Assembly: GCA_013816485.1 (NCBI GenBank)
Contig: JACDEI010000002.1
Location: 160,322-224,321 of the forward strand
Direction of reading: 5' to 3'
Length of the DNA: 64,000 bases
Origin: Planctomycetota bacterium
GTDB taxonomy: Bacteria > Planctomycetota > UBA11346
The position numbers and the translations under genes were made by a program. The notes under the pieces are model-generated. The model was not told the origin of the DNA, ran no database searches, and saw only the letters and a list, made by a program, of their open reading frames with translations. Positions 54,889-56,823 of this stretch are shown here, one piece after another. The number at the start of each line of letters is the position of its first letter. Position 1 is the first letter of the stretch.

Positions 54889-56823
54889 ATGCGTTCCCAC
54901 CTGCTTGCTGTGCTTGCCATCTTTCTGCTCGGGCTCGGTCACGCGACCGCAGCCGAACGCACCTGGACAGGTGGTGGCGGAGTAGGTTCCACCGCTTGGT
55001 CGATGCAGATCAACTGGGGAGGAGCAACCGTTGGCTCCAGTGATTCGCTGGTCTTTCCGAACGTCACCAACAAGGCTGCTATGAACGACTTGGGTGGCCC
55101 GCCGACGATTGGTCCGCTGACCTTCAACGCCTCTGGCTACGTGTTGTCTGGAGACGCAATCGCCTTGGCGGGCGGCGTGTTCCATAACGGAACCGGTGAT
55201 AACACGATCGGCATTCCCTTGATCGTAGATTCTCCTGTCGCGTTTGCCGTCAGTAACGGGACCGGTCGTCTCATCGTGAACCAAGCGATCACCACCACCG
55301 GCGGCATAATCAAATCAGGGAACGGAACCCTGGTGCTCTCGGCCAGCAGCAACTACTCAGGTCCCACGATCGTTTCCGCTGGCACCTTGCAGGTCTCGAG
55401 CCAGATCACCAGCAACGTGCAATTGAGCGGCGGTGCATTGATGGGGACCGGGCCGGTACAAGGCATTACCGCACTGAATCAAGGCGCGGTCATTCTCTTT
55501 CCGGGTGCGAACGGAACCGTTGGCAACTTCGTCTCCAATGGCGCTGTGGTCTTCTATGCCAACGATGATTTGTACTTCGATATCGCTGCCGGCGGCAGCG
55601 ACAAACTGACCGTCACAGGTACCGTCGACTTGGGCGGTGCCGATGTAGTCATCAACGTGATCAGCGCCACGGCGCTGAACACCGACGTGGTTCTGATCGA
55701 AAACGACTCGACCGACCCGCTCGTTTTCAATGCTGCGAGCCCCAGCAGCTACCTGCGTTCGTTCACCAATGGGGGGAACCGCTACTCCGTGAGTTTCGTG
55801 GGCGGCACCTCACGTAATGACCTCGTGCTACGCCGGGTGCCAACAACCGTGCTGACCTCCATGACTCTCACCGCAGACGATAGCACCCCCATACCGTCAC
55901 AAGCGGTGCTCTTGACGGCAAATGCTACCGGGGCCTTCAATGGTACCAAAACCGGTCAGCAAGTATCGTTCTGGGATGGCAACCGACACCTGGGAATCGG
56001 TGCATTCATCAATGAAGTCTCGGCGCAATTCACCATCCCGGCGAATACCCTGCTTCCAGGCACCCATTTCATCACCGCCTACTATGAAGGCGATGGTAAC
56101 AATGCTCCGATCCAAAGTGCGGTTCAGGTTCTGAACGTCCTCGGAACGTTGACCACCACTTTGAGTGCCGCACCGACATCCACCTCCACCTCCGGACAAA
56201 CCGTGGCATTCACCATGACGGTGAATGCGTCCGCAGGAACCATCCGTCTTTACGATAGTATGACCGACCTCAGCGGACCTTTGGTTGTCACGGGTTCTCC
56301 GGTCGTCTTTAATTTCAGTGGGCTGAATGCCGGAGCGCATACGCTGCGTGCGCTTTACAGCTCCCCCGATGATCTCATTTACAGTCAATCCGCTGACGTG
56401 GCATACACGGTCACCGGTGGGCAGGACACAGCGACCACGATCACCACCAACGCGAGCCCAATCGTCGCCGGCACGCCTGTCACCTTCAACATCACCGTTA
56501 GCAACAATGCCCCTGGTCAAGTGACCCTTTATGATGGATCGGCTACCTTGGGAATCGCAACGCTGACCAGTGGTGCGGGGAGTTTCGTTATCAGCGGTCT
56601 GACTGCAGGTACGCATACCATTACCGCGGTCTATGCTGGTACGCCCACCCATGAACCGAGCAGCGCTTCAGTCGCTCAGACGATTACTTCCGCACCCGGC
56701 GGTGGCGGTTCTGGTGGCAACAACGTGGAGCTCGAAGGCGGAGGTTGCGGCCTGGGTTCGGGCACGGCGGCGCTGATCCTGGGAATGTTGCTGCTGGTCG
56801 GGCTGCGCTTGCGGCGGGAGTGA
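54889..56823 (+). CDS. Exported repeat-rich surface protein with a C-terminal sorting-like tail
   Basis: A 644-residue protein with signal peptide MRSHLLAVLAIFLLGLGHATA. N-terminal half (about 20-310) has autotransporter-associated beta-strand repeats, with GNGTLVLSASSNYSGPTIVSAGTLQVSSQ as the clearest. About 320-620 has three Ig-like repeats (TTLSAAPTSTSTSGQTVAFT, TATTITTNASPIVAGTPVTFN type, each ending in TAVYAG- or HFITAYYEG-like strands). The tail is a Gly-rich linker, then GGCGLGSGTAA, a hydrophobic helix and RLRRE. This resembles three-part C-terminal sorting signals that contain a Cys next to glycines. Start set by AGGAG upstream. Noticeably less GC-rich at third positions than neighbours. 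Confidence 0.75.
   Translation: MRSHLLAVLAIFLLGLGHATAAERTWTGGGGVGSTAWSMQINWGGATVGSSDSLVFPNVTNKAAMNDLGGPPTIGPLTFNASGYVLSGDAIALAGGVFHNGTGDNTIGIPLIVDSPVAFAVSNGTGRLIVNQAITTTGGIIKSGNGTLVLSASSNYSGPTIVSAGTLQVSSQITSNVQLSGGALMGTGPVQGITALNQGAVILFPGANGTVGNFVSNGAVVFYANDDLYFDIAAGGSDKLTVTGTVDLGGADVVINVISATALNTDVVLIENDSTDPLVFNAASPSSYLRSFTNGGNRYSVSFVGGTSRNDLVLRRVPTTVLTSMTLTADDSTPIPSQAVLLTANATGAFNGTKTGQQVSFWDGNRHLGIGAFINEVSAQFTIPANTLLPGTHFITAYYEGDGNNAPIQSAVQVLNVLGTLTTTLSAAPTSTSTSGQTVAFTMTVNASAGTIRLYDSMTDLSGPLVVTGSPVVFNFSGLNAGAHTLRALYSSPDDLIYSQSADVAYTVTGGQDTATTITTNASPIVAGTPVTFNITVSNNAPGQVTLYDGSATLGIATLTSGAGSFVISGLTAGTHTITAVYAGTPTHEPSSASVAQTITSAPGGGGSGGNNVELEGGGCGLGSGTAALILGMLLLVGLRLRRE

Follow-up and report, generated by a model that had tools for sequence, protein, structure and literature searches.

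A predicted cysteine-containing C-terminal sorting signal on surface proteins of a Planctomycetota family

Introduction

Synerg-CTERM tails, like several other C-terminal sorting signals, are tripartite, and they contain a cysteine. The MYXO-CTERM signal (TIGR03901), paired with MrtX, combines a motif with Cys, a helix and Arg residues; each genome has many targets, which are repeat-rich or enzymatic surface proteins. According to the portions of PMC11980579 on which we draw, MYXO-CTERM is processed by a CPBP protease, and the conserved MYXO-CTERM Cys residues of Myxococcus xanthus are needed for cleavage. In the same portions, Guo, Haft and Wall treat Lgt as the leading candidate for an acyltransferase that acts before myxosortase, its identity not being established. 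MrtX also cleaves MYXO-CTERM in Escherichia coli, a host with only its own Lgt (PMC11980579, same portions); a dedicated Lgt therefore need not exist. The GlyGly-CTERM signal (TIGR03501), partner of rhombosortase (TIGR03902), has a Gly-rich motif, a helix and Arg residues. Cleavage by a rhomboid and transfer to lipid have been proposed for it, and under the curators' rule, as worded in the part of PMC3237569 used here, its motif never contains Cys.

We analyzed a window of 64,000 nucleotides from a Planctomycetota genome, in which one gene encodes a protein whose tail has Cys within a Gly-rich motif. We found no published account of this tail in the literature on C-terminal sorting signals, myxosortases and planctomycete exosortase sorting. 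It is a known kind of sorting signal in a new form, for which we found no printed account in Planctomycetota.

The window gene and its protein

The gene begins with an ATG at 54889 and its stop codon ends at 56823. The features of the gene are as follows.

54889..56823, + strand: open reading frame of 644 aa, predicted to encode an exported protein with a Cys sorting tail; Pfam matches are PATR and three Big_3_5
54889..54951, + strand: signal-peptide-like N-terminus of 21 aa, read by eye from the sequence
55309..55395, + strand: PATR/autotransporter repeat, residues 141-169 (PF12951, 41.6 bits; TIGR02601, 44.1 bits)
56443..56688, + strand: best of the three Big_3_5 Ig-like stretches, residues 519-600 (PF16640, 99.7 bits)
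56746..56763, + strand: signature motif C-G-L-G-S-G, beginning with Cys620 (from the sequence; C-G-x-G is kept in the profile rows)
56764..56805, + strand: hydrophobic helix TAALILGMLLLVGL (from the sequence; hydropathy maximum)
56806..56820, + strand: basic end RLRRE (from the sequence)

By eye, the N-terminus is hydrophobic and signal-like (MRSHLLAVLAIFLLGLGHATA). The C-terminus reads GGGCGLGSG-TAALILGMLLLVGL-RLRRE-stop, exactly the Gly-Cys motif, membrane helix and Arg tail that a preliminary description of the window had reported. Cys620 is encoded at 56746-56748, and the hydrophobic run between GGGCGLGSG and RLRRE is about 14 residues long. Within the last 40 residues the highest 15-residue mean hydropathy is 2.37. 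Judged from its sequence, the product is a putative surface or exported protein with a tripartite C-terminus.

A family of tails within one genome

Six-frame profile searches identified the tail in at least 17 genes of the window's own genome, window gene included; the assembly has 101 contigs and is about 87% complete. As a lone query the window tail found five further C-terminal copies, and profiles A1, A2 and A3 (6, 14 and 38 rows) raised the total. These genes lie on contigs C5, C15 (two), C20, C38, C45 (two), C54, C59, C60, C69, C72, C89 (the window), C91, C96, C99 and C101. The searches set no requirement for a C-terminal position, and every match in the 16 non-window genes, when read out, lay 0-10 codons from the stop. 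Four further matches from the A1 stage, all with E > 0.4, were read out and rejected, as they are not tails. The preliminary description had likened the tail to the three-part design of sorting signals and had asked whether it is unique in the proteome: it is not, and tripartite tails are shared at C-termini across the genome.

The cargo of these proteins is varied. Among the 8 of 17 scanned with Pfam we identified Ig-like, PKD, PA14, GSDH, M11 peptidase-like, NPCBM-associated and PATR domains. By eye, 13 of the 16 non-window proteins have an evident N-terminal hydrophobic stretch; those on C15 (the 170-residue one), C54 and C99 have no clear one.

The consensus of the motif is C-G-x-G-[SG]-G. 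C-G-x-G is present in all 14 rows of A2 and in all 38 rows of A3, which span 8 genera; because Cys tails served as the seeds, part of this Cys invariance is built in. Of the 29 loci read for the profile (L033-L061), 23 were read via a pattern requiring C[GA]xG and six without it. Excluded from A3 were L046 (no tail), L047 (outside the family) and the C91 tail of the own genome. The tail is more than chance, and many proteins per genome share one signal.

Distribution across genomes

At E<=0.02, A3 detected tails in 17 of the 23 genomes in the Planctomycetota family to which the window belongs (f1). This survey scored up to 20 candidates per genome, so per-genome tail counts are lower bounds, and a tail-negative genome is one with no match at E<=0.02. 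The highest count, obtained with A2, is at least 22 (G013). The weakest tail-positive genome, G022, is classed as such on two weak matches only (best E 0.0067), which weakens its use in the comparison of tails with Lgt2 below. G018, which is tail-negative, gave one match in an earlier profile search, and this is not a C-terminal tail.

Outside f1, 17 of 369 genomes matched at E<=0.02 (best E 3.4e-4), against about 7 expected by chance; among the matches listed, 16 of the 17 have a single one. Another Planctomycetota family, f22, has different Cys tails (GGCSAGQG, GGGCVAGGG, GGGCVSGG and SGCVVGAG), in which the motif is followed by a helix and Arg near the stop. They occur at five loci in four genomes: L047 and L246 (G067), L241 (G165), L242 (G235) and L243 (G215). 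Part of the matches outside f1 are real, but are Cys tails of another flavor.

These data bear on the simplest explanation of the tail, a plain stop-transfer anchor: a C-terminal membrane helix that is neither cleaved nor lipidated. The helix and Arg residues would hold the protein in the inner membrane with no enzyme involved, consistent with the finding, described below, that no processing enzyme tracks the tail. Such an anchor needs no Cys/Gly motif, yet C-G-x-G is kept across differing cargoes and 8 genera, and the helix sequence drifts. The weak f22 matches also keep Cys before the helix, with the profile seeding bias applying here too. We consider a plain anchor quite improbable.

Relation to named sorting signals

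For the window tail alone, the best sorting model is MYXO-CTERM (TIGR03901) at 15.9 bits, below the curated cut-off of 20. With the full-length protein, NCBIfam at E<=10 gave no MYXO-CTERM match, and the only sorting-signal model was T9SS (E 9.8), at residues 532-579, away from the tail. TIGR03901 is matched by 17 of 38 tails at E<=1. The best of these has E 0.00025 and by scaling may exceed 20 bits; some relatives of the window tail may thus pass the cut-off. The tails have the MYXO-CTERM layout of Cys in the signature, helix and Arg-rich C-terminal end, as seen with profiles that were Cys-seeded, and also resemble MYXO-CTERM in having many targets per genome on repeat-rich or enzymatic surface proteins. 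Unlike MYXO-CTERM, they occur in Planctomycetota and have the C-G-x-G-[SG]-G motif, and none of 13 scanned CPBP proteins reaches a myxosortase cut-off.

With GlyGly-CTERM the tails share a Gly-rich motif, a helix and Arg, and the genome has a related small rhomboid; 3 of 38 tails match the model at E<=1. However, the window tail has Cys in its motif, and the rhomboid, which falls short of the rhombosortase cut-off, shows no association with the tail. The Cys is thus a pointer to the MYXO-CTERM/myxosortase kind rather than to GlyGly-CTERM. Synerg-CTERM (enzyme MrtS) and JDVT-CTERM (enzyme MrtJ) were matched weakly by 3 and by 2 of the 38 tails, with best E values of only 0.0068 and 0.0055, and their motifs differ. 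MrtJ is the best NCBIfam match of one CPBP protein of the genome (L002), but at a score below its cut-off. By sequence, the tail is best described as a predicted Cys-containing C-terminal sorting signal with MYXO-CTERM as the nearest named kind, for which we use the working name CGxGSG-CTERM.

Candidate proteases

The preliminary description noted no sorting enzyme in the window, and indeed there is no CPBP, rhomboid or exosortase match on its contig, C89. It further suggested that a dedicated system may exist elsewhere in the genome, and it likened the tail to signals handled by rhombosortase- or exosortase-like enzymes. Any enzyme of the searched families does lie outside the window, and a rhombosortase-like rhomboid exists. 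The rest found no support as worded: no candidate protease (two CPBP types and the rhombosortase-like rhomboid) tracks the tail, and under the curators' rule the Cys speaks against GlyGly-CTERM. Exosortase (PF09721) was rejected as the tail enzyme, since it was not found in the own genome (about 87% complete) and was likewise not found in 19 of 23 f1 genomes (the own genome among them), the other 4 having it.

We identified three CPBP (PF02517) genes in the own genome, none above any Mrt cut-off. L001 encodes an ABC-permease/CPBP fusion that scores 369 bits for NF041647, below the cut-off of 435; L003 is a weak CPBP match. L002 (628-2244, - strand) encodes a CPBP protease with a C-terminal extension of about 290 residues, conserved in part of f1; its core scores 52.4 of 75 bits for MrtJ, 38 of 100 for Mrt_core and 34.7 of 195 for MrtC. 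With orthologs of the L002 type defined by E below 1e-25, the type occurs in 9 of 17 tail-positive vs 2 of 6 tail-negative genomes (Fisher p 0.64), and for want of association it was rejected as a dedicated tail enzyme. G005 and G007, both over 90% complete, are without it.

A myxosortase-like route, in which the L002-type CPBP or the fusion cleaves the tail and ordinary Lgt lipidates it, is a possibility that we take seriously but lean against. It draws on the resemblance of the L002 core to the Mrt models, all below cut-off, on the CPBP processing of MYXO-CTERM reported in the cited part of PMC11980579, and on the fusion type, seen in 9 of 10 tail-positive genomes more than 75% complete (six by scan, some partial; three judged by length and core). 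Against it are the distribution of the L002 type and the presence of the fusion type, judged by length and core, in tail-less genomes such as G008, G009, G014 and G018. G007 (94% complete, at least 9 tail matches) has the fusion type alone, and in G015 we saw the L002 type only. We rank CPBP ahead of rhomboid as the cleaving enzyme because those Cys signals for which an enzyme has been named (MYXO-, JDVT- and Synerg-CTERM) pair with CPBP, as far as the NCBIfam names and the part of PMC11980579 used here indicate.

Rhomboids offer another route, in which the rhombosortase-like protein of about 200 aa, or another rhomboid, cuts at the Gly-rich motif and hands the protein to lipid, the Cys being incidental. 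In a tree placing 49 of 53 rhomboid matches (four weak ones were left out), the small rhomboids form a clade with support 100/100, found in 19 of 23 f1 genomes with one row each. Rhombosortase is the best NCBIfam match of the two members scanned, at 46.2 bits (own genome, where one of three rhomboids was scanned against TIGR03902) and 37.3 bits (G007); these scores and the Gly-rich tail with its few GlyGly-CTERM matches fit this route, but the cut-off is 84. Moreover, the small rhomboid is present in 14 of 17 tail-positive and 5 of 6 tail-negative genomes, the three tail-positive genomes in which it was not found including G011 at 94% completeness. It was rejected as a dedicated tail enzyme, being near-universal in f1, and the proposed correlation of tails with rhomboid genes did not appear. 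Cys is present in all collected tails and, in the cited part of PMC3237569, never in GlyGly-CTERM.

In G013 (C54, L362) the gene directly 3' of a Cys-tail gene encodes a GlpG-like rhomboid, which scores 169 bits for TIGR04239. This arrangement would favor a rhomboid, but as the sole such neighbor in 53 rhomboid matches it could be chance, and we did not retain the gene as the tail enzyme. G011 (C32, L363:9137-11817) encodes a VWA protein ending in GGGG-helix-Arg, with no Cys, whose gene overlaps one for a rhombosortase-like protein (69.5 bits against the cut-off of 84); the pair lies 4 kb from a Cys-tail gene. It is apparently a dedicated GlyGly-type pair beside the Cys tails, and this separate Cys-free pair argues against the rhomboid route. 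The rhombosortase-like gene was rejected as a Cys-tail partner, as its partner is the Cys-free VWA protein. Overall, we regard rhomboid processing of the Cys tails as unlikely.

A second Lgt

The own genome has two Lgt genes, a canonical one on C58 (228.9 bits to TIGR00544) and Lgt2 on C45, 28% identical to it. Lgt2 scores 166.1 bits for PF01790, above cut-off, and 96 bits for TIGR00544, below the cut-off of 118.9. In a quick tree without bootstrap, 13 f1 Lgt2 sequences form one clade (support 100) and 20 canonical Lgts another; the split Lgt2 of G001 was left out of the tree and assigned by similarity. A third type of Lgt-like protein, shorter and with a GCxxAGCC-like motif, occurs in G021, G006, G007 and G017 (L358, L359, L360 and L361). 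G009 has two very similar canonical Lgt genes (L344 and L350) on different contigs, from duplication or as an assembly or binning effect.

Lgt2 occurs in 14 f1 genomes, 13 of 17 tail-positive vs 1 of 6 tail-negative. The exception, G004, has Lgt2 and no detected tail, which counts against a role for Lgt2 in tail processing. Lgt2 is present in 10 of 10 tail-positive genomes more than 75% complete and in 3 of 7 less complete ones, a split at 75% that was chosen after the data were seen; the four tail-positive genomes without it are 61-72% complete. The Fisher test of tail against Lgt2 gives p 0.018 if the diverged G011 copy is counted and 0.05 if it is not. However, in a two-marker-protein genome tree with weak deep support, five of six tail-negative genomes lie on one side of one split, which leaves 2 independent pairs, and the correlation is therefore not significant once relatedness is counted. 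It is largely one evolutionary split.

The structure model of Lgt2 (pLDDT 83.6) predicts the Lgt fold: it aligns to E. coli Lgt (5azb) with Z 19.8 and rmsd 3.4 over 241 residues, and the next row has Z 6.6. Counterparts of R143, G154, R239, E243 and R246 are kept, invariant in 10 aligned rows. In contrast to canonical Lgt, Cys occupies the N146 and E151 positions in 10 of 10 rows, and the H103 position is Y in 7, F in 2 and L in 1. Alanine variants of E. coli Lgt at H103, R143, N146, G154 and R239 fail to complement in the assays excerpted from PMC13251419; Lgt2 keeps three of these residues, with H103 and N146 replaced. H103A/N/Q/R/Y did not complement in the part of PMC4728403 considered here. 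For E151 the two sources, as excerpted, contrast: E151A complements in PMC13251419, and E151A/Q are inactive in PMC4728403. The same part of PMC13251419 describes divergent Lgts with N146C, E151C/D and Y/W/F at 103, notes that replacements of H103 and N146 occur elsewhere, and presumes low activity for one divergent Mycobacterium smegmatis enzyme. Lgt2 is thus of a known divergent type. Lgts carrying these Cys replacements are also common in genomes in which we detected no CGxGSG tail, which counts against the link between Lgt2 and the tail.

A conserved gene cluster

On C45 the order is tail gene, Ser/Thr kinase and FGE-sulfatase protein, outer-membrane barrel, FecR-like protein, second tail gene, Lgt2 and a gene that we take to be rplS. 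The FecR-like protein is presumably of that type by resemblance; Pfam gave no match. Lgt2 lies 39 bases from the second tail gene. It immediately follows a tail gene in G000 (the own genome), G001 and G003, all of one genus; the G003 tail came from a pattern search, not from the listed matches. In two other genera (G006 and G007) the C45 order is kept for the first tail gene and for the kinase/FGE, barrel, FecR-like and Lgt2 genes. The cluster is also present in G012 and G016, with no tail gene in the stretch examined, the G012 contig starting inside the cluster; the G013 contig ends within Lgt2. Against the linkage, in 6 of 14 genomes (G004, G005, G011, G015, G017 and G022) Lgt2 lies away from the cluster. 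Cluster loci are L310:366-8479 and L030:8048-12178 (G000 C45), L111, L116, L110 and L114, with rplS in most and tail genes in three genera.

The adjacency of tail genes and Lgt2 is one conserved block and so is a single item of evidence rather than five. A rough control used the 154 tail matches listed: 5 of 39 Lgt matches share a contig with a tail match, and all 5 are Lgt2 (of 14), at distances of 0.7, 0.9, 6.9, 6.9 and 24 kb. On the same listed matches, the counts are 1 of 50 for CPBP (23 kb apart) and 5 of 53 for rhomboids (two within 5 kb). Contigs are of unequal size, so no probability is attached to these counts.

The cluster outer-membrane protein, which has a GYDxN motif, is modeled by AlphaFold as a 14-stranded barrel (pLDDT 75.3). 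The structures nearest to the model are CymA (Z 22.8) and OmpG (Z 21.3), at rmsd 3.3-3.4 over 256-266 residues, for which reason a Slam-like identity was rejected. Pfam gave no match for the barrel at E<=0.001, and two weak ones at E<=1 over six members.

Proposed processing and implications

With moderate confidence, we favor the explanation that CGxGSG-CTERM is a MYXO-CTERM-like signal whose Cys is lipidated, possibly by Lgt2, before the helix is removed, and that family f1 uses it for large, repeat-rich surface proteins. A tail protein would first be exported by Sec via its N-terminal signal peptide. The C-terminal helix would then halt in the inner membrane, leaving the Arg end on the cytoplasmic side and exposing the Cys on the outer face, where the Cys would be lipidated, possibly by the Lgt paralog Lgt2. 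An intramembrane protease would next cut off the helix, so that the protein is held by its C-terminal lipid, and the lipid-anchored protein would finally move to the outer membrane. Of this scheme, lipidation of the Cys and removal of the helix probably occur, by analogy with MYXO-CTERM.

Lgt2 is the best lead for tail processing. A stronger form of this idea is that Lgt2 is a diacylglyceryl transferase dedicated to the C-terminal Cys, the missing acyltransferase of Cys-containing sorting signals, specialized in f1, and that its gene shares an operon-like cluster with those for substrates, outer-membrane barrel, FecR-like and kinase/FGE proteins. We offer it tentatively and think it rather doubtful.

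With a Cys tail family in another phylum, and an Lgt paralog encoded beside some of the substrates, the acyltransferase question becomes testable in a heterologous host. One clade among the divergent N146C/E151C Lgts also gains a suggested function. For the organisms themselves, the tail suggests a possible means of anchoring many large surface proteins in a planctomycete family.
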